Positions 1,109 through 54,784 of a stretch of DNA of 64,000 nucleotides are shown piece by piece (position 1 is the first letter of the stretch; every line of letters starts with the position of its first letter). Origin of the DNA: a virus; IMG/VR virus record IMGVR_UViG_3300041405_000299, positions 108,105 through 172,104 of that record, one strand, 5' to 3'. The notes below the pieces were generated by a model. The model saw nothing but the letters and a program-made list of their open reading frames with translations, did not search any database and had not been told where the DNA came from. A program made the position numbers and the translations under genes.

Positions 1109-1134
1109 AAGGGGCCCGAAGGCCCCTTTCTTTT
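1109..1134. terminator. Bidirectional terminator between convergent genes
   Basis: Stem AAGGGGCC / GGCCCCTT with a CGAA loop (core 1111-1126), flanked by TTTCTTTT on the plus side. It separates the plus-strand gene ending at 1103 from the minus-strand RNA polymerase gene ending at 1133. Confidence 0.8.
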
Positions 1135-4100
1135 AGCCAATTTTGATTGGCGTGTTCGACTTGATCTTACCTTCCTTCAAGGCTGCCAGCGCTTCCGCTT
1201 CGGTCTTGAAGTGATGGACTTCCTGGTCCATGTCCGGTTTGGTCAAGTGCACGGAACCGAGGATGGCTTCGTGACCCGGGGCGAACATTGGGTTACCGAA
1301 CCCACGGCGAGCATCGTGCAGGTGAGAAGAAGGTCTTAACTTCTCGCGAGCTTCCTTCACAGCTTCCGGTGTCATCGGCACGTACATCGACAAGGCATCA
1401 CCGTCGTAGTCCGCTGCGTAACCCGGCAGGTGCAGGATGTTTAGACCGATGGTCTTCCCGTCAGATGGAATCGGCTTCATGGCCATGATGTTGGTACGCA
1501 TCAGGGTTGGAGCACGGTTCAGCAGAACAGGCACGGTATCCACGATGTGGTTGAAAGAAGCTGTCGCCGCGTCGTTACGTGACTCGTAGGCGTTCTTCGC
1601 TTCCGCTAAGTCGTAGCCCTTCTGGCTCAGGTCGCGGATGATGTGCATCTTGTACATCTCCCACAGCTGATCCTTCGGAATCTTCGCTTCGTTGAAGCCC
1701 ACGTCCGGCGCCGCGTAAATGGTACCACGACCAGAGAAGTCCTGCTTTTTAGACAGTAATTTGCTCTGGAAGAAACCATTCTTCGGTCCTTCGTTACCTT
1801 CAATCTGCTCGAGCAGACCTTTCAAACCTTTCTGCTTCGCCTGGAAGTCGATTGGCTCACCGCCGGCCATGATGGCCTTCGCACCGTTATACAGATCACG
1901 ACGCAGATCGGTCATACCTTCCATGTCTGGAGAAATCAGGTCCATGTCCCCGACTTCATCTTCCAGACGCTTCAGACGGCCGTTGACCAGCATGTGGTGC
2001 TTGTACAGGTCGTTCACGTCAGCAAAGCCCAGACGGGTACCAGAGATTGAGTACGGACGCATCACCGGAGGAATGACCGGCATGTTGTGCAGCACGTACG
2101 CTTTCGACGGGTCGGTAAAGTCTTGCTTATCCAGACCGGCCAGGTACTTCATCTTCTTAACCATCTTGTCACGCTTGCTAGCAGATTTCTCGTCTACGAT
2201 TGACGCTTTCAGATGATTCAGCTCGTCCTGAACGTTGATGTCACCCAACATGGCTTTCAGAGCGTGGCCGCCAACCAGGGTATCACCCTCATCTGAAGCT
2301 TGCTTGTCCAGCATACCGGAAACGTTCACACGCTTAATCAGCTCGTCATCCTTGTGAGTGTCCACGAGGTCGAACTGGCCTTTTCCACGACGGATAACGC
2401 CGAACTTACCAGACACGATGTTGTTGAACTGATCCTGGTTCAGACCCAGCAGGGTTTTCACCGGTGCTTCCATGATCGGGTTTACGATCGGTTCCATCAG
2501 CTTGTAGTGAGACCAGTTGGTACCTTCCGGTCCGCCGGTCACGGTCATATCGAACAGACCGCCTTTCACTGGTGCCACGTTACGAGCCAGAATCATGTCA
2601 GGTTTCTGCACTTCACCTGAAGAGTTCGCCAGGACTTCCCGGTCGGTCATCGGCCCCGCGACGAGGTTACCATTACGCTCGGACACGCTGATCCCAGAAC
2701 CACGCAGATAATCGAAGAACTTCTTCGTTGCGAAGGTCGTTTTCGGCTGTGGCAGCGGAAGGCCACGCATGAATTTGTCCCAGTAGTCGTGCGTATCGGC
2801 ATGATCACCACCTTCTGATTTGACCGTACCGATCTCTTTCAGGTTGGCACGGGCGTTTGAGCCCAGCAGGCCCAGGAACTCCATGTAACCAACAGACTTC
2901 GCACCGTCGTCACCGCCTTTGGTAGGCTGAGCGTTGTTGTCGTAACCGCCGACAGAACGGGCTGAGTAGTTGGCATCGGTCGTCTTGTTCAGCTTCAGAA
3001 TGTACTGTGGACCCGTCAGCACGCGGTCACCGTAAACCTGACCGGTCTTCGGGTTGTACAGTGTGTCGGTGTCACTCAGGCCATGCTCTTTCAGCTTCTC
3101 CATCATGTTCTTCACGACGGTGCCTTCGTCATAGACTTTAGTCTTGTACGGAGTACCTGTCTTCTGGGCGATCTTGCCGGCAGCGGCTTCGAATACTTGG
3201 CCCAGGTTGATACGTGAAGTCACAGACGCTGGGTTCAGGATCATATCCAGAGGTTTACCGGTTGTCTTCGAGTGCGGCATATCTTCATCTTCTTCGATGA
3301 GAGAAACGACACCCTTGTTACCGTGCAGGCCGGTTACCTTGTCACCGACTTCCAGCTTACGCTCAGAACGGACCATGATGCGGATCTTCGACCCATCGGT
3401 AGAACAGTCGGTTACTACGCCTGGCTCTTCGTGATCCCAGATCTCAGCGGCTGAACGGTATGGGTTCACCAGGGTCTTGTGCAGACGGCCCAGAACCATA
3501 TCGGTTTCAGTCAGCGTACGCGTCTCGAGAACGGCGTAAACCGGGTCACCGTAATGCAGCGTCACACCCGGCTTAGCGAAGCCACGGTTATCCAGCTTGT
3601 TCAGCTGATCGGCTGTGAACTTACCGGCGAACGCAGACTTGTACTTGCCGAGATCCGCAACGGTTTCTTTACCCATTGAGTACTCGATTTTGTACGCGTG
3701 GTTCGACGTCAGCTTCTCACAAGCAGAACGTGACACAACGATACCATCTTCATGGTTAAAGCCTTTGTACGGCATGTACGCCGTTTCCAGGTTCTTACCG
3801 ATAGCGAACTCGCCGCCTTTGGTGTAGTTGTTGTCAGACAGCACTTGGCCGGCTTTGACTTCATCACCAACGTTCAGACCGTGAGCTTCGTCGTCGTGGA
3901 AACCTTTCATGTTAAACGGCAGGTTCTTCACGAAGTCGATCTTGTGGTCCGAACCATCTTCATGGGAACGGATGGTTACACTGTTCGGCTCGGCTTTGAT
4001 GACCTTACCAGCTACCGGCGACACCGTGGATACGATCTGACCGATTTGCTTGACGAACGTCTGACCGTTGTCCGCCACGGTTTGCACCAGTGGTGCTTCA

Positions 4101-5716
4101 CGATGAACCAGTGACAGTGCCTGAGGGATCGCCTTACCCGCCATGGTCAGACGACCTGGGTGGTTGGTGTTCAGGAACGGCACGAGGTTAGTCGTGATGG
4201 TGTACATGTCGGTACCTGATGGAATCCAGTATTCAACCTGAGCACGCGGAACGCTTTTGAACTCACCGTTAACCTGGGCCTGCACGTCTGGCTTACCGCT
4301 GTTACGACCATCTGGGAAGCCGATGACTTTGGTCATCAGTTCATTCGCCGACAGGTAAACCGTCTTACCGGTTTTCGCATCGATAGCACGAGAGTACATG
4401 CCACCTTCTTTGTCACGACGGGCAGAAATGGTGAAACGCTGGTCCAGACCGGCAGATGATGACTCTGGGGTACGGCTTGGGTCGATGATTCCCAGGTTTG
4501 ACGGGTGCACGTTACGTGACTCGGTCGTTGCCTGACGCTCAGAGGACATACCACCTTCGCCTTTCGCAATCAGCGTAACCTTACCGACGTTTTCGATAGA
4601 TTCGATCGGGTTGGTTTCATCCGGCGTTGAAGACAACTGTGAGCCGATAACAAAATCGGTGTAGATCTTGTTGAAAGGCTTAGCCGGCACAACTTCACGC
4701 AGACTTGGTGCTTCATCCTTCAGACGGCTCATGTTGTACTTGATGCGGTCAAAGGCCTTGCCTACGGTCTGGTGCTGCTTGTTTTCTTCGAAGCGACGAG
4801 CGATAAAGTCCGGCAAGTTCTGGACACGCTTGAATTGCAGTGAGTCACGGTTGTCTTCCGGGCGCTTCTTAGAGTACACGCTAACGATGTTCTTCATCGC
4901 ACGCAGTAGGGTTTCTGCCTCGATGCCACCGAAGGATTTACCGAGGGTGATTTCGGTTGTTTCCTTGTCCAGAGTCATCTCTGCCAAACGTTTCTTCAGG
5001 GCGGCACCCATCTCTTCACCAGAGACATTCTTCGATTGCTCGCGACGGTCCACCAGACGACGGTACAGTTGGTTCAGAGCAACATCTTCTTTGCCTTGAG
5101 TCAACTTCACGTTTGCCTGCCACACGTCCGTTGGAACGAACTTCAGGATCTCAGCCGTACCCAAACCGAAGCCTTTGGTCAGCAGCGGTGCGATCGGGAT
5201 GTGCAGCGTGTTGCCGTTAATCTTGGAGAAATAAATCTCCATGGTCTTCGAATCCAGGCCGAGTGAGAACGTTGCACCTTTACCGGTGTTGATGTTGGTC
5301 TCGAGCTCGCCATTATTGGTCCGACGGGTATACACGCCAGGACGCAGCTGCATCAGGTTAGCAACCGAGTAGTTGTTCCCTTTGTACAGCAGCGTGTGCT
5401 TGTTGGTCACGTGGAAGGTATCCGCCAAGGCGAAGTCTTTCACACGGTCCACCAGCTTGCCGGTTGCACGGTCGTGCAGCAGCAGCGTGCCACGGATTGG
5501 ATAGGTCAGCGAGCGAGACTTAAGGATGGCTTCCTTTTCATCGGCCGTGGTGTACGTCTTTTTATCGATGTACGGGTCCGTAATCGAAAGGGTGTACTTA
5601 CCGGTTTCGATAGGGAATTGCTTGACGATCCCGTCCATCATCGCCCCGTCAGTCGCATCATTGATGGACTTAGGTGATGAGAAAATCGGAATCAGTTCAC
5701 TGGCTGACTTAGGCAT
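1133..5716 (-). CDS. Multisubunit-type RNA polymerase, beta fused to N-terminal beta-prime
   Basis: Encodes 1527 residues. Seen in the sequence: a beta-type N-terminus with the segment QLRPGVYTRR (cf. bacterial RSPGV), the beta active-site region PYKGFNHEDGIVVS (about 650-660), the beta signature GLHGNKGVVS (about 797-806), then without a break beta-prime features: QDFSGRGTIYAAP, LLNRAPTLMRTN and the Mg-binding loop YAADYDGD (Asp 1436, 1438, 1440). The chain stops about 87 residues after that loop, so bridge helix, trigger loop and the rest of beta-prime are missing here. Known family: phage multisubunit RNA polymerases, usually split into several chains. Start ATG 5716 (MPKSASEL) has GGAG upstream; the frame is open further but lacks a ribosome site. 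The first codons overlap the end of the small upstream gene, and the portal lies just before, suggesting late co-expression. The missing C-terminal beta-prime is presumably encoded outside the window. Confidence 0.93.
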   Translation of the reverse strand: MPKSASELIPIFSSPKSINDATDGAMMDGIVKQFPIETGKYTLSITDPYIDKKTYTTADEKEAILKSRSLTYPIRGTLLLHDRATGKLVDRVKDFALADTFHVTNKHTLLYKGNNYSVANLMQLRPGVYTRRTNNGELETNINTGKGATFSLGLDSKTMEIYFSKINGNTLHIPIAPLLTKGFGLGTAEILKFVPTDVWQANVKLTQGKEDVALNQLYRRLVDRREQSKNVSGEEMGAALKKRLAEMTLDKETTEITLGKSFGGIEAETLLRAMKNIVSVYSKKRPEDNRDSLQFKRVQNLPDFIARRFEENKQHQTVGKAFDRIKYNMSRLKDEAPSLREVVPAKPFNKIYTDFVIGSQLSSTPDETNPIESIENVGKVTLIAKGEGGMSSERQATTESRNVHPSNLGIIDPSRTPESSSAGLDQRFTISARRDKEGGMYSRAIDAKTGKTVYLSANELMTKVIGFPDGRNSGKPDVQAQVNGEFKSVPRAQVEYWIPSGTDMYTITTNLVPFLNTNHPGRLTMAGKAIPQALSLVHREAPLVQTVADNGQTFVKQIGQIVSTVSPVAGKVIKAEPNSVTIRSHEDGSDHKIDFVKNLPFNMKGFHDDEAHGLNVGDEVKAGQVLSDNNYTKGGEFAIGKNLETAYMPYKGFNHEDGIVVSRSACEKLTSNHAYKIEYSMGKETVADLGKYKSAFAGKFTADQLNKLDNRGFAKPGVTLHYGDPVYAVLETRTLTETDMVLGRLHKTLVNPYRSAAEIWDHEEPGVVTDCSTDGSKIRIMVRSERKLEVGDKVTGLHGNKGVVSLIEEDEDMPHSKTTGKPLDMILNPASVTSRINLGQVFEAAAGKIAQKTGTPYKTKVYDEGTVVKNMMEKLKEHGLSDTDTLYNPKTGQVYGDRVLTGPQYILKLNKTTDANYSARSVGGYDNNAQPTKGGDDGAKSVGYMEFLGLLGSNARANLKEIGTVKSEGGDHADTHDYWDKFMRGLPLPQPKTTFATKKFFDYLRGSGISVSERNGNLVAGPMTDREVLANSSGEVQKPDMILARNVAPVKGGLFDMTVTGGPEGTNWSHYKLMEPIVNPIMEAPVKTLLGLNQDQFNNIVSGKFGVIRRGKGQFDLVDTHKDDELIKRVNVSGMLDKQASDEGDTLVGGHALKAMLGDINVQDELNHLKASIVDEKSASKRDKMVKKMKYLAGLDKQDFTDPSKAYVLHNMPVIPPVMRPYSISGTRLGFADVNDLYKHHMLVNGRLKRLEDEVGDMDLISPDMEGMTDLRRDLYNGAKAIMAGGEPIDFQAKQKGLKGLLEQIEGNEGPKNGFFQSKLLSKKQDFSGRGTIYAAPDVGFNEAKIPKDQLWEMYKMHIIRDLSQKGYDLAEAKNAYESRNDAATASFNHIVDTVPVLLNRAPTLMRTNIMAMKPIPSDGKTIGLNILHLPGYAADYDGDALSMYVPMTPEAVKEAREKLRPSSHLHDARRGFGNPMFAPGHEAILGSVHLTKPDMDQEVHHFKTEAEALAALKEGKIKSNTPIKIG

Positions 5717-5990
5717 GCAGTCGTTTCTCCATGTAAATAACAACACAGGTGTAAACCCCTGTGGTACCCGAGATCGAGTCTTTGCGTTCGAGGACAACAA
5801 CGTCACCACTTAAGCTGCGGGTCAGCAGCGTTTCAAGTGGGATGGTATCATCATCTTCGCCGCCGATCGTGAAGTGACCGACGCGATAGACGAACTGCGA
5901 CGGGTCAAACCCGACGTCTTCAAGAGCCGGGGTCATCCCCGGCATGCTCGATCCCTTATTGCTGGTTTCCAGCGGATTGATCTTGCTCAT
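5709..5990 (-). CDS. Small protein between portal and RNA polymerase
   Basis: Encodes 93 residues beginning MSKINPLE, with AGGAG about 8 nt upstream of ATG 5990. It overlaps the portal stop by 35 nt and the RNA polymerase start by 8 nt, so the three genes look translationally coupled. The C-terminal half (TIPLETLLTRSLSGD, then alternating hydrophobics) suggests a small beta-rich fold. I do not recognise it. Its position suggests a virion or head-completion role, or an RNA polymerase partner; both are inference. Confidence 0.75.
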   Translation of the reverse strand: MSKINPLETSNKGSSMPGMTPALEDVGFDPSQFVYRVGHFTIGGEDDDTIPLETLLTRSLSGDVVVLERKDSISGTTGVYTCVVIYMEKRLHA

Positions 5991-7692
5991 TTTGTGCTCC
6001 TGGTTGTTCTTCGGAACTGCCCGGCTGAGGCAGATCATTCAGGACGCCCATCACGGTTTGATACAGTGTTGGGTCGTTGTGTTGGATTTCCATAAGGATA
6101 TCACGTTGTGCCTCTGGAGTTCCAGCTGCCAGCACTTTCTTCGCGATCGCGTAAGCTTCCTTACGGTTATCTTCGTAGCCAGAAGAGTCCTTGTCACTGC
6201 TCAAGCCTTTCGACTTCATGTACATCGCTTTGTCGACCAGATCTTTGACCTCGATTTCCTTCTCGGAAACGGCCACTTGGTCACGACCCATTTTGTCGAG
6301 CTCTTCGTTGTAGTCCATACCGTACGCTTCAAGCAGGGTAGAGGCAGACACAACTTTCGCTTTCCACATGTCGAGCATGGCCGCTTTGAGCGCTTCGTTA
6401 TCCGTAAGTTTAAACGGCACGAGCTTAACGTCGGTGATCTCGATAGCCAGATACTGAGCGATCTTCTCCATGACCCAGTTGATCAATTCACTGACCTGAC
6501 CCACGTAGTTGTTCATCGTGTTCTCAAGCAAACGCAGACCGACCGTTGAGGATGTCCAGTTGGTCGTACCGGACAGCAGCTCACGGGAAACACCCATCGA
6601 CATCAGCTGTTGCTCTTCCGCGTACTGCAGCTCTTGGTTCACCAGCAGTGAACGACCTTGGCCACCCAGTTGCTGATAACCGATCTGCACCGGAGAAATC
6701 AGGATGTGGTTCGGGTCCGTCTTCATCTGACGCATCGTCTTCTTCATGTTCTTCGCAAAGCCACGCATGCTCATCTGAGCAATCGGGTCACCCTGAGCAG
6801 AAGTCTGCTGAGGGAACAGCACACGAAGTGGAACCATGTGTTCGGCGGCCACGGCTTCGTTCGCTTTACGCAGCATCTGTTGATAGAACACCAGGCCGTA
6901 ATGCGAGATCAGCGGTGGAATCCCCAGTCCATCGACCATCGAGCCCATCGAGATGGATTTCATGTGGTAGATGTTGCTTGGGTCAAACATGTAGTCTTTA
7001 CCAAAACGTACAGCTTCAACCATGGACCATGGAACGGTCGCCAGGAAGAGCGGATCGCCTTGCATGATCTTGCGTTTCACGTCGCCAGGAATCTGGTAGT
7101 AGAACTCAGACTCACCGGTCACCGGGTTATGGTTCAAGGAGACGTGTTCGGGTTTCCACTTCACCAGGTTGATACGGCTGATGTCACGTGACTTGGTGTC
7201 CACCACTTTGTAGTTCACTTTCTGCAGGCAGTTCGGGCATTCACCCTGGAAGACCCACTTCTTGAACGCCGCAAAGCCTGAACGCATCGCTGCTTTCACT
7301 TCGTAGCTCGACTTACAGCTCGGGCAGTGCAGGTGACGGTCGATTGGGAAATAGATCGACGTGTAAACGTTACCCAGCGTGTAGAAGTCAAAGCCGAAAT
7401 CACAAAGCTTCTCTTTGAACTTGATGCTCTTGAAGATTTTCTTGTACGTATCAACTGTCAGTTCCTGGTCGGAATCCATCAGGAAGTCCGTGATCGGATA
7501 CGAAGACAGCTTACGGATCACCTCAGTCGTCGTTGGCGCCTGGGTGGTAATGTAACGTGACCACTTGATGATGTCGTGGAAGCTACGAGGAATAAACTGG
7601 TTCGCCTGGTTGAAAAACGGGTTGGGCAGCGTACCGACTTCGTAGCTGTCCGCCATACCGCTAGGCGTAGGGTTCAATCCGAACATTGACAT
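5956..7692 (-). CDS. Portal protein with embedded zinc ribbon
   Basis: Encodes 578 residues, in the size range of myovirus portals. The central region has the layout of portal proteins: a membrane-binding-like segment near RRKL, the stretch PSNIYHMKSISMGSMVDGLG, then a long helical part (FYQQMLRKANEAVAAEHMVP) and a Gln/Ser-rich tail. Two CPxC pairs (CPSC near residue 123 and CPNC near residue 152) form an apparent zinc ribbon inserted in the N-terminal half. ATG 7692 (MSMFGLN) is preferred over ATG 7707 because AGGA lies 10 nt upstream. The assignment rests on fold-level pattern and on the neighbouring virion-type genes. Confidence 0.8.
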   Translation of the reverse strand: MSMFGLNPTPSGMADSYEVGTLPNPFFNQANQFIPRSFHDIIKWSRYITTQAPTTTEVIRKLSSYPITDFLMDSDQELTVDTYKKIFKSIKFKEKLCDFGFDFYTLGNVYTSIYFPIDRHLHCPSCKSSYEVKAAMRSGFAAFKKWVFQGECPNCLQKVNYKVVDTKSRDISRINLVKWKPEHVSLNHNPVTGESEFYYQIPGDVKRKIMQGDPLFLATVPWSMVEAVRFGKDYMFDPSNIYHMKSISMGSMVDGLGIPPLISHYGLVFYQQMLRKANEAVAAEHMVPLRVLFPQQTSAQGDPIAQMSMRGFAKNMKKTMRQMKTDPNHILISPVQIGYQQLGGQGRSLLVNQELQYAEEQQLMSMGVSRELLSGTTNWTSSTVGLRLLENTMNNYVGQVSELINWVMEKIAQYLAIEITDVKLVPFKLTDNEALKAAMLDMWKAKVVSASTLLEAYGMDYNEELDKMGRDQVAVSEKEIEVKDLVDKAMYMKSKGLSSDKDSSGYEDNRKEAYAIAKKVLAAGTPEAQRDILMEIQHNDPTLYQTVMGVLNDLPQPGSSEEQPGAQNEQDQSAGNQQ

Positions 7693-7723
7693 GATGGTTT
7701 TCCTCATTAATTAGACTAACAGG

Positions 7724-7756: not shown

Positions 7757-7775
7757 GGTATAAGTAAGGTGTAAC
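7757..7775 (+). promoter_or_regulatory. Phage promoter motif GGTATAAG
   Basis: GGTATAAG followed by TAAGGTGTAAC, 22 nt before ATG 7797. It starts the plus-strand membrane-protein cluster and diverges from the portal operon. No -35 box at the expected distance. Confidence 0.75.
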
Positions 7776-8187: not shown

Positions 8188-8208
8188 GGTATAAGTTAGT
8201 TGTATACA
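8188..8208 (+). promoter_or_regulatory. Phage promoter motif GGTATAAG
   Basis: GGTATAAG-TTAGT-TGTATACA, directly after the stop of member 2. First of two tandem copies in the 129-nt gap before ATG 8310. Confidence 0.65.
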
Positions 8209-10417: not shown

Positions 10418-12334
10418 ATGCAATTAACTTTCACTCCGGACAGGAAGAACATTCGGTTCGTTCCTGAGACGACGGCCGAGGATACGATCCTTACGGCGTT
10501 CCCGGCTTTGTATAAGGTACGCGGCGAGCGTTGGGCGCCGGCATTCCCTAGTATTTTACAGAATATCGTCGGGCGTTTAAAGAAGAAGCTCAAGACGCCG
10601 ATCCAAACCAAAGAAAAAGACATCGTTGACTTGCTCCGCAAGGAATCGACCTTACTCCCAATCCCTGATCACTTCAAGTATCACACGCAACCGCTCGAGC
10701 ACCAAGAGCTCGCCCTTCGTTTCCTTTACACTCGGGGCGGCGGAGGTTTACTGCTGGATCCGGGTTTAGGGAAAACGAAGGTCGTCCTCGATTACATCGC
10801 GTTGATGGGCTTTAAGAAAAGCCTGATCGTCTGCCCAGTGGCCCTGCGTCACGTGTGGCTCGATGAGGTTCGGGACCATCGTCCGGACAAGACGATTCAC
10901 ATCATGGAATCCACTAACTGGAATCGCTCTTTGATTTCCGCCCGCCAGCGTGTGGAGAAATGGGAGAAGATCTTAGCGGAGCTCGAGGAGGGTACCGAGA
11001 AGTGGAAGCGTGCCCGGGCTAACGTGAAGTCGGCAGAACGTGAAGTGGCCAACATCCCGAATAAACGTGAAGCTGACTTGGCGGCCGCGGCGGCAGCTGA
11101 CATTATCGTGATCAACTACAACAAGGCGGTCATAGATACGGACCTGGTCTCTCATGGGATTGCAACCGGTGTGGACTTCTTGTCGAAGAACTTCAAGATC
11201 GACTTCGTGGCACTCGATGAAGCCCTCATCAAGACTCACAACTCGGCCCGTACCCGCGATCTCCTGAAGCTCGCCGCGGTGGTGCCGTACCGTGTGATCA
11301 TGTCTGGAACGCTCATCAACAACACGGCCCTGGATGCCTTTGCTCCGATTCGTTTCCTCCAGCCAGCCCTGACCGGTATGGCGTACGGGAAATTCGATCA
11401 GCATTACGGCATCAAGATTAAACCTCGGGGCAAATCCTTCGAGGTGACCATCGGGGTAAGCAAGGCCAACGTACAGGAAATCCGAGAGATCCTCGAGTCT
11501 TGCTCAATCGTCATGCGGAAAGAAGACTGGCTGCAGCTGCCTCAGAAGAATTACCATCCGGTACGCTTCGAAATGTCGGAAATCCAAAAGGCGATGTATT
11601 CTGGACTTGTTAGCAATTACGTCTACACTTTACCTAATGGCGAAGTCGTGGCGGTGGATAACGGTCTGGGCATGCTCTCGAAGGTACAGCAGATCGCCAA
11701 TGGCTTCCTGTACTACAAAGAGCAGGAAGATGACTACCTGGACATCCTGTTTGGCGGCGAAAAGAAAGAATCGCCCCGCAAGACGTACTTCTTCGATGAA
11801 CAACCGAAGTTGAACGTGTTGGGTGGGTTGATGGATGGCGATATCGCCGGCCGCAAGTTCATCCTGTGGTACAACTGTCAGGCAGAGCACGAGCTGATCA
11901 CTCGTTTCCTCGATCGCCGAGGTGTGAGTCATCTCTCGGTTCGCGGCGGCACGAAAGACACGGGCGCCATCGTCCGTCAGTTCAACACCGATCCTTCCGT
12001 GACGGTGATGATCTGCCAAGCCAAAGCTGTGAACTACGGGATTACCGTACTCGGAAAAGACCCGGAAGCCCTCGAAGGTATCGAGGAAGTACTACCGGAA
12101 TTCTCCACCCGTGTGTACACTCACGTGTTCTATTCATTGAATTACTCTCTGGAAGTGTTTTTGCAGCAGCAAGACCGCTCGCACCGTATCGGTCAAACCC
12201 ACGAGGTGGACTATTACATCCTCTTGGCCGAGTGTGAGGCCGAAACGCAGGTCTACGAAGCGCTTCAAAACAAGATGGTGATCCGTGAATCGGTACTCGT
12301 GGACTTTTCGAAAAGACTTAAACCACTGGTATAA
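10418..12334 (+). CDS. SNF2-family DEAD-like helicase/ATPase
   Basis: Encodes 638 residues. Walker A DPGLGKTK (GLGKT at 116-120), motif Ia (SLIVCPVALRHVW), motif II as LDEAL at about 266-270 instead of DEAH, motif III MSGTLINN, and a SNF2-type motif VI QQQDRSHRIGQ (583-593). A charged insertion of about 60 residues lies between motifs Ia and II. The family are double-strand DNA translocases used in recombination, replication-fork remodelling or transcription. GGTGGAG ribosome site before ATG. Stop codon TAA lies inside the promoter motif of the next gene. Probably acts in phage replication or recombination. Confidence 0.88.
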   Translation: MQLTFTPDRKNIRFVPETTAEDTILTAFPALYKVRGERWAPAFPSILQNIVGRLKKKLKTPIQTKEKDIVDLLRKESTLLPIPDHFKYHTQPLEHQELALRFLYTRGGGGLLLDPGLGKTKVVLDYIALMGFKKSLIVCPVALRHVWLDEVRDHRPDKTIHIMESTNWNRSLISARQRVEKWEKILAELEEGTEKWKRARANVKSAEREVANIPNKREADLAAAAAADIIVINYNKAVIDTDLVSHGIATGVDFLSKNFKIDFVALDEALIKTHNSARTRDLLKLAAVVPYRVIMSGTLINNTALDAFAPIRFLQPALTGMAYGKFDQHYGIKIKPRGKSFEVTIGVSKANVQEIREILESCSIVMRKEDWLQLPQKNYHPVRFEMSEIQKAMYSGLVSNYVYTLPNGEVVAVDNGLGMLSKVQQIANGFLYYKEQEDDYLDILFGGEKKESPRKTYFFDEQPKLNVLGGLMDGDIAGRKFILWYNCQAEHELITRFLDRRGVSHLSVRGGTKDTGAIVRQFNTDPSVTVMICQAKAVNYGITVLGKDPEALEGIEEVLPEFSTRVYTHVFYSLNYSLEVFLQQQDRSHRIGQTHEVDYYILLAECEAETQVYEALQNKMVIRESVLVDFSKRLKPLV

Positions 12335-12350
12335 GAAAAGAGTGTATACA
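12328..12350 (+). promoter_or_regulatory. Phage promoter motif GGTATAAG
   Basis: GGTATAAG followed by AAAAGAG and TGTATACA; spacing to TGTA is slightly longer than in the other copies. The TAA within the motif is the stop codon of the SNF2 helicase gene. Serves the XPD/DinG-like helicase. Confidence 0.65.
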
Positions 12351-14122: not shown

Positions 14123-14297
14123 GTTCGGCGTATCTGCCCGTGTGGCTCGTATCTATGCGGCAGTTGCAATCTGTTCGGAGATCCTGCCGGACATTCGAGT
14201 TGAGCCACGTCAGGTAATTTACCAGGACAGGTCGTTCTCGATATACCCCAGGGCGCTTGACGGAACGTCATACCCAGAAGTTGTCGTTTGCCCGTAA
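14025..14297 (+). CDS. Small hypothetical protein
   Basis: Encodes 90 residues starting MKIETNDCQL. ATG 14025 is chosen over 14019 because GGAG (14015-14018) is then at normal spacing. The product has a basic central helix (KKTKLAMARFGVSARVARIY). Its last 79 nt overlap the 3' end of the convergent sigma-factor gene, unusual for this window, so confidence is moderate to low. Unrecognised. Confidence 0.4.
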   Translation: MKIETNDCQLTITPEGVYERKTIEKKTKLAMARFGVSARVARIYAAVAICSEILPDIRVEPRQVIYQDRSFSIYPRALDGTSYPEVVVCP

Positions 14298-15079
14298 CCG
14301 TCTTCCATAACTACACGCAGCAAATCCATGCTCTTACTCAAGGAGCGCTTAACGTAAGCCTGGTTATACTTCGGATTATTGAGTTCACGGACGACCTCAA
14401 CCGGTTTCATCTCGACGCCGTCGGTGATACCGTAAGACATCTTCAGGATCTCATTATCCGGGTAAGGCAATTGATTGATAGCGGACAGTAAGCTATCGTT
14501 TTCCAGCTCGTCCACCAGCTGGTCAATCGGGTGGACCATCGGCGTATCGGTTTCCTTCATGTTATCCAGATAGAAGGTGATGTACTGGGTTTTACTCAGC
14601 TCACGCAGATCCTTCACTGAAGCATTGGGAAACTCCTCTTTCAGCTCATCAATCGTCGGCATCTCGTCCTTAGTCTCAACGAATTTCTTGATCTTCGTGG
14701 CGAGTTGCTGTTTCTGAGCAGGCAGAGCTACCAGGCGCCAGCGGGACATTTCCTTTAGCTGACGCTGCATGACCCACCAACCGGCATAGCTTAACAGGCG
14801 AACGCCGGACGTCGGATCGAATTTGTCCAGACCCGCCAGAAGTCCCTCGTTGCCGGCGGCAATGAGATCTTCGAATTGTTCAACGTTACCGCGAGAATAT
14901 CTCTTGGCTTTCTTGAACACGAAACGCAGGTTTGAGCAGATGAGAGTATCCCGAGCACGTGCCTTTTGGGCGTCCGTGGACGTTGGCGAGAAGTACACCT
15001 CTAGCTGTTTGTTTTCTTCCTCACGGCTGAGGATAGGGTATCTTTCGCAGATATCCTCATAGTATTTCGTCAAGCCCAT
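14219..15079 (-). CDS. Sigma-70 family RNA polymerase sigma factor
   Basis: Encodes 286 residues. Region 2 is clear: about residues 44-113, with DLIAAGNEGLLAGLDKFDP and SYAGWWVMQRQLKE (core binding, -10 recognition and melting). A region 3-like helical segment follows (120-165). The C-terminal part (200-255, LPYPDNEILKMSYGITDG) looks like a weak sigma region 4. Start is ATG 15079 (MGLTKYYED) with TTGGAG upstream. It could direct host or phage core polymerase to phage promoters; a degenerate region 4 would fit promoters lacking a -35 box, such as the GGTATAAG class. It lies alone on the minus strand between plus-strand units. Confidence 0.88.
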   Translation of the reverse strand: MGLTKYYEDICERYPILSREEENKQLEVYFSPTSTDAQKARARDTLICSNLRFVFKKAKRYSRGNVEQFEDLIAAGNEGLLAGLDKFDPTSGVRLLSYAGWWVMQRQLKEMSRWRLVALPAQKQQLATKIKKFVETKDEMPTIDELKEEFPNASVKDLRELSKTQYITFYLDNMKETDTPMVHPIDQLVDELENDSLLSAINQLPYPDNEILKMSYGITDGVEMKPVEVVRELNNPKYNQAYVKRSLSKSMDLLRVVMEDGYGQTTTSGYDVPSSALGYIENDLSW

Positions 15080-15120
15080 TGTGTTCTCCAAGTTAGTCAC
15101 GGTATAGTACCCGCCACAGT

Positions 15121-32886: not shown

Positions 32887-33061
32887 TTCTGATACGCCCA
32901 ACGTTCCAACGACGTTCCACACTAAACCCTTGTGCCGTAAGGCTTTTCTACCATCTGATACGCCGATACGTCTGCAACGTCACTTTTGACATACTTTAGA
33001 GTGTAACTGTTCCCCTATACTATAAACTACTTACTAAGACTTTTTATAAGGTATATATAGT
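32887..33061 (+). other. Non-coding region with TCTGATACGCC repeats and ACGT clusters
   Basis: No gene seen. TCTGATACGCC occurs at 32888 and 32954, each followed by several AACGTT/ACGTC tetramer clusters; similar ACGT-rich sequence recurs at the right end (63945-63980). The second half is AT-rich (TATACTATAAACTAC, TATATATAG) and could hold a promoter; a TTGACA at 32986 has no -10 at a proper distance. Possible regulatory region or DNA-binding-protein site. Confidence 0.5.
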
Positions 33062-33241
33062 ATGTCTACCTACCCTATAGATTCAGAGGGGTGTGTCCTT
33101 CTGTGCGTACTTCCCGTTCCGCCGTTTCAACCCCCGATTAGCCCACCGTGGCACCAACCCTACTGGAACGTCCTCAAAACGCCTATTTCCAGGTATAACC
33201 AATTTGACGAAAGGTCTCCGTCCGGAGCCCTACTTATTTAG
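33062..33241 (+). CDS. Doubtful small proline-rich protein
   Basis: Open frame of 59 residues (MSTYPIDSEGCVLLCVLPVP...), with AAGG 11 nt upstream. Composition (Pro-rich) and codon choice differ from other genes of the window, and a promoter motif and a hairpin lie in its 3' part. May be non-coding leader DNA. Confidence 0.25.
   Translation: MSTYPIDSEGCVLLCVLPVPPFQPPISPPWHQPYWNVLKTPISRYNQFDERSPSGALLI
33192..33205 (+). promoter_or_regulatory. Promoter motif variant GGTATAAC
   Basis: GGTATAACCAATTTGAC, the same GGTATAACCAAT start as at 15351. Lies 51 nt before ATG 33250; a small hairpin (CTCCG/CGGAG, 33216-33227) follows. Confidence 0.45.
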
Positions 33242-54768: not shown

Positions 54769-54784
54769 GGTATAAGTAACACGT
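54769..54784 (+). promoter_or_regulatory. Phage promoter motif GGTATAAG
   Basis: GGTATAAG-TAACACGT, 14 nt before ATG 54798. Starts the first antirepressor-like gene. Confidence 0.65.

Follow-up and report, generated by a model that had tools for sequence, protein, structure and literature searches.

A complete beta subunit of a cellular-type RNA polymerase (RNAP), fused to the N-terminal part of beta-prime, is encoded in the window, the 64,000-nucleotide stretch of DNA that was analysed and that corresponds to genome positions 108105-172104 of the 172,104-base virus record IMGVR_UViG_3300041405_000299. Together with a separate gene for the remainder of beta-prime (beta-prime-C), this fused chain in all likelihood makes up a functional two-gene virion RNAP. 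The gene anatomy, the partner, the conserved catalytic residues, the conservation of a short motif and its co-occurrence with a protease are established here, and what is new is the [LMFI]xKxA motif found in a beta-prime loop of the fused chain, at the point where a sister clade has its genes split. The best explanation of the whole, which is considered reasonably probable, is an RNAP that would be packed in the head, injected, directed by a phage sigma factor and cut by the prohead protease.

Anatomy of the fused chain and its partner

The reading frame at 1133-5809 (minus strand) is open for 1558 codons from a GTG; the ATG at 5716 is common to the relatives and gives the product of 1527 residues used here (Table 1). 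Pfam domains lie along it in the order beta then beta-prime: Rpb2_6 (8.9e-57), Rpb2_3, Rpb1_2 (6.9e-16) and a weak Rpb1_1. Both elements by which a cellular-type RNAP is recognised are present, namely the catalytic lysines of the beta DPBB (K1065 and K1073 equivalents) and the DxDGD of the beta-prime DPBB (D460/D462/D464 equivalents), and the beta-prime R425 equivalent is also kept. The chain ends 87 residues past YAADYDGD, and the Pfam and motif coordinates agree with the initial annotation, which had described a complete beta, beta-prime as far as this triad and a stop about 87 residues on.

Table 1. Features of the window, in window coordinates.
Feature	Position	Strand	Remarks
Fused RNAP chain	1133..5716	-	beta residues 1 to ~1020; beta-prime N-terminal part ~1025 to 1527
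Beta part	2645..5716	-	E. coli-numbered K1065, K1073, R1106, D814, R678 equivalents kept
Beta-prime segment a, ~beta-prime 20-150	2320..2644	-	Zn ribbon C70/C72/C85/C88 deleted; boundaries approximate
LDKQA motif	2297..2311	-	residues 1136-1140; surface loop; candidate prohead-protease site
Beta-prime segment b, ~beta-prime 165-540	1136..2290	-	clamp helices region and DPBB
YAADYDGD catalytic Asp triad	1397..1420	-	
Portal protein	5956..7707	-	match to phrog_16240 (E=2.5e-6); shares synteny with the portal annotated in Arash; upstream of RNAP gene, same strand
GGTATAAG early-strand promoter-like motif	7757..7764	+	
GGTATAAG copy	8188..8195	+	
GGTATAAG copy	12328..12335	+	41 nt before helicase gene
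Sigma-70 family factor	14219..15100	-	Arash gp196 counterpart by position
GGTATAAG copy	54769..54776	+	29 nt before ORF

A single-sequence phmmer search had placed the start of beta-prime at ~1140-1170, a position that was corrected by profile search. Because the family profile matches B. subtilis beta-prime at 19-53 (weak alone, but in order) and then without a break at 90-539 (whole-sequence E=2.7e-89), and because hhalign matches the region ahead of the single-sequence hit to beta-prime 27-65, the border between beta and beta-prime lies at about residue 1025, earlier than the motif-rich part implies. Among the motifs checked across both chains, the N-terminal Zn ribbon is, as judged by alignment, the sole part of beta/beta-prime to be deleted; its four Cys are also missing in the relatives compared. 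Two beta-prime residues that contact sigma, R275 and E295, are not conserved in the fused chain. An AlphaFold model of the beta-prime part, used for local structure only, gave low TM-scores yet strong E-values against PDB chains, probably as a result of domains misplaced in a model folded without its partners.

The bridge helix and trigger loop, which the initial annotation expected on another gene, were found by a search of the genome on beta-prime-C, a gene of 639 codons at genome 103412-105331 (minus strand), just beyond the window, whose product matches Thermus beta-prime (PDB) at E=1e-45. T790, Q929 and H936 are kept in these elements, M932 and R933 of the trigger loop are replaced by Leu and Gly, and the second Zn site still has its full set of four Cys, such that every catalytic motif checked is present across the two chains. 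The gene is abutted by that for a SNF2-type helicase, the counterpart of Gp217 of phage Arash. Within the 172-kb record, which may be incomplete, no match to alpha (PF01000) or omega (PF01192) was obtained with positive controls, and neither was a second beta or beta-prime set, each having one match.

Probable virion packaging and comparison with known systems

Arash (OQ632216) encodes the same pair, gp206 and gp216, which follow the portal in the order seen here, at 86% and 83% identity, and both products are abundant in its particles by mass spectrometry (MS; PMC10585845). No other protein was detected as strongly as Gp206, the fused chain (128 unique peptides, 3516 spectra), and 40, 38 and 24 unique peptides were reported for Gp216 (beta-prime-C), the SNF2-type helicase Gp217 and the sigma factor Gp10 respectively. 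The two proteins were reported simply as beta and beta-prime subunits and, in the accessible part of that report, the fusion, the partition of beta-prime, the cleavage motif and the lineage are not described; nor was a description of a beta/beta-prime fusion found in the literature searched, which is not proof of absence.

A place in the Arash particle list does not by itself demonstrate packaging, because the list also holds probable carry-over enzymes (ribonucleotide reductase, primase), and carry-over of abundant enzymes is offered as an alternative by the Arash authors themselves (PMC10585845). It is conceivable on these grounds that an intracellular late RNAP merely co-purifies with the particles. 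However, this is improbable given that the fused chain is the most-detected protein and exceeds even the capsid protein, whereas the likely carry-over enzymes are represented by few unique peptides, mostly 2-11, and given that its gene lies on the late strand with head genes around it and the beta-prime-C gene abuts its neighbour. Judging from the occurrence of the fused chain and its partners in the particles of so close a relative, the fused chain of this virus is very likely a virion RNA polymerase; the packaging that had been raised as a possibility on first reading is supported as probable by the published Arash MS.

The same reading had taken the chain for a phiKZ-type RNAP that joins three of the split parts, a proposal contradicted by the separate lineage, the single RNAP set and the unsplit beta. 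The vRNAPs of phiKZ, SPN3US and 201phi2-1 resemble the present enzyme in being multisubunit-type polymerases of the head without alpha or omega and with beta-prime broken after the DPBB, but their beta is split, the vRNAP has five chains, a second nvRNAP is encoded and no sigma is recognisable (PMC7598289). Here, the break after the DPBB is shared; beta is intact in one gene, one RNAP set is present in the record, which may be incomplete, and two sigma-70 region-2 matches were obtained, one above the cut-off. Membership of the phiKZ type is rejected on the unsplit beta, the single set and the sigma genes. It could still be supposed, from the common break and the common lack of alpha and omega, that the split chains of a phiKZ-type enzyme were secondarily rejoined; this is very improbable, since in addition to these three differences the RNAP is far nearer to bacterial beta than to the phiKZ-type chains and groups with its own phage lineage, the phiKZ-type branches being long and poorly supported. 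An artefact or a dead enzyme, to which only the initial surprise at a truncated beta-prime lent any weight, has a negligible chance of being correct: the same architecture recurs in many independent contigs and isolates, with the catalytic residues kept. A sequencing error that hides a longer beta-prime frame, named at the outset as a refuting observation, is excluded because full-length fused relatives within its own clade (57-90% identity) end at the same point and the remaining beta-prime is a separate gene.

Cyanobacteria, like phiKZ-type phages, are known to have beta-prime interrupted after the DPBB (PMC7598289). In cyanobacterial RNAP (gamma = rpoC1, beta-prime = rpoC2) the break falls at the corresponding place, but beta and gamma are separate genes, and the Zn ribbon, alpha and omega are present. 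The virion RNAP of P23-45 (PMC10770324) is likewise of cellular type, found in the particle and part of a larger polypeptide, but is fused to the tape measure protein. Homologues of beta/beta-prime outside the phiKZ group are also encoded by YerA41, Kleczkowskaviridae (RHph_TM30) and the Vibrio phages Va2 and 1.031.O; these differ in having separate beta-prime genes amid replication genes and distant sequences, YerA41 having beta-prime in two parts plus beta.

Sigma factors and a strand-biased octamer

Two different sigma-70 family genes are present in this one RNAP-encoding phage, and only the Gp10 type is reported in Arash particles. The counterpart of Gp10 lies at genome 52091-52795 (minus strand) and matches sigma region 3 and, partially, region 2; the Arash equivalent of the other, gp196, is not in the particle list as given in PMC10585845. 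A k-mer scan of intergenic gaps discovered the octamer GGTATAAG, of which the window holds 15 copies against 0.82 expected (a post hoc count), always on the plus strand, and the genome 32 against 2.55 expected, with 31 copies on the early strand. It extends to about TGGTATAAGTAANNTGTA and is often positioned 30-45 nt ahead of a start codon. As an independent check, 30 of the 31 copies in Arash share a strand, and in relatives the octamer is strand-biased against a reversed-pattern control, with one genome having none. In sequence, GGTATAAG is similar to an extended -10 element. A phage sigma as partner of the virion RNAP is marginally favoured, and the two together may read GGTATAAG; the alternative reader is the host RNAP with a phage sigma.

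Five conserved elements of ~130 bp were also observed, at window ~33020-33150 (genome 141124) and genome ~205, ~37887, ~72207 and ~106206, with a roughly even spacing of 31-38 kb and divergent TATA-like stretches, GGTATATATAGTATG / GTAGTTTATAGTATA. The exact core of the element was not found in Arash. Possible roles are as origin, packaging or promoter sites.

Gene organisations and a candidate cleavage site

Relatives were gathered by two scans of viral contigs and fall into three organisations. The Arash clade has the fused chain and a separate beta-prime-C; a clade 51-57% identical has separate genes for beta with the start of beta-prime, for the middle of beta-prime and for beta-prime-C; and distant relatives (~30%) have complete beta and beta-prime joined into a single polypeptide of ~2035-2052 aa (contigs L086, L087, L088, L089 and L091). 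Two more distant loci also have fused chains. The present genome shows the features of the Arash-type lineage, which are the fused beta/beta-prime-N, the separate beta-prime-C and the K-x-A of the junction loop. In a tree of the beta-prime core, the fused Arash clade (support 100) adjoins the split clade (99) and the other fused and single-chain phages fall outside; the branches leading deeper, to other phage RNAPs, are long with weak support, and the claim is limited to coherence of the lineage. Parsimony on the bacteria-rooted tree favours an ancestral fusion that was split afterwards. Introns were rejected as an explanation of the sister-clade split: in five such loci Rfam detected none, and ordinary genes lie between the halves. 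Group I introns do occur at the same site in beta of two fused relatives (L012 13533-13813 and L025 11539-11820), the former with an annotated homing endonuclease, and a further one lies near the portal region of L012 (9736-9943).

In the variable beta-prime linker, one [LMFI]xKxA motif is found in each junction-spanning fused chain of the Arash clade (MHKEA in Arash gp206), and K1138 and A1140 are invariant in a 9-row alignment of fused relatives. The motif falls where the sister clade has a stop and a new start, and is absent from the sister-clade chain ends examined at the gene split. In the AlphaFold model, LDKQA lies within a 14-residue coil, an exposed loop in which its conservation would be consistent with recognition by a protease. 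Given that ~2.5 such motifs are expected by chance in a chain of 1527 aa, it is position and conservation that carry the case for cleavage. Head genes of this genome are enriched in the motif, and Arash provides confirmation in a second genome: 51 copies in the head/RNAP cluster (12.2 expected), 26 in other detected proteins (22.2) and 9 in the rest (10.7), the groups having been delimited after the motif was first seen in this genome. The capsid protein (MCP) has LVKEA/LTKEA near its N-terminus.

The head cluster encodes a probable protease (genome 96423-97901; phrog head maturation protease, E=1.3e-5) whose K30 and A32 show no variation across 38 diverse homologues; the same holds for the presumed catalytic H96 and S147. 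In its model, the disordered N-terminus stops at residue 32, and other disordered stretches start beside K-x-A motifs. The fold matches prohead proteases in a viral structure library; a PDB fold search with the full model gave nothing significant (HCMV protease, E=0.12). Two protease homologues, L165 5929-8793 and L171 5902-8637, have an insertion of ~360 aa in the conserved domain, possibly an intein, and L024 13339-15243 encodes a 634-aa K-x-A-bearing protein between the RNAP halves of a split relative.

From these observations we infer that [LMFI]xKxA is the recognition site of the prohead protease, with the RNAP chain as one putative substrate, and the balance tips towards cleavage of the fused chain at its K-x-A site. 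A two-chain virion RNAP that stays uncut, with K-x-A serving for head targeting or scaffold binding, or serving other proteins only, is the less likely reading. In its favour, some motif-rich head proteins have up to 9-10 copies, which is unusual for simple maturation sites and makes a binding or packaging motif possible; the ~30% identical single-chain relatives lack the motif at the junction, such that cutting is not needed for activity throughout the lineage; and the SPN3US vRNAP beta works uncut, though 201phi2-1 trims its own by prohead protease (PMC5694885), which is itself a precedent for trimming. No precedent for cutting one vRNAP chain into two core pieces was found in the literature consulted. 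However, the invariance of K and A at the protease's own propeptide boundary, alongside its catalytic residues, and the gene split of the sister clade exactly at the motif position both argue for cleavage. The fuller scenario, in which the protease would cut the fused chain in the capsid and the product would be ejected with packed sigma as a ready-made holoenzyme, is given an even chance.

In the proposed mechanism, the fused chain would be the large subunit of a DNA-dependent RNAP of bacterial descent, packed in the head and presumably injected with the DNA. Beta-prime-C would supply the bridge helix, trigger loop, second Zn site and C-terminus of beta-prime, the two chains forming a whole and presumably active beta/beta-prime core that lacks alpha, omega and the N-terminal Zn ribbon. 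A packed sigma-70-type factor of the Arash gp10 type would probably direct it to putative TGGTATAAG early promoters, and the SNF2-type ATPase encoded beside beta-prime-C would probably assist. During head maturation, the prohead protease would probably cut within the clamp region of beta-prime, at the LDKQA loop, into pieces of ~1140 and 387 aa that match those encoded by two genes in the sister clade; proteolysis in the Arash clade would then give the subunit boundary that its sister obtains by gene split.

The sigma genes found here break the stated rule that large phages encoding an RNAP have no sigma and, if the proposal is true, a candidate virion sigma and a candidate promoter would make promoter recognition directly testable. 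The enzyme would be a minimal cellular-type RNAP of two genes, lacking alpha and omega as well as the N-terminal Zn ribbon, that could be expressed and tested, and its relatives would form a natural one-, two- and three-chain series of one enzyme, in which proteolytic maturation would substitute for gene splitting in the evolution of RNA polymerase.
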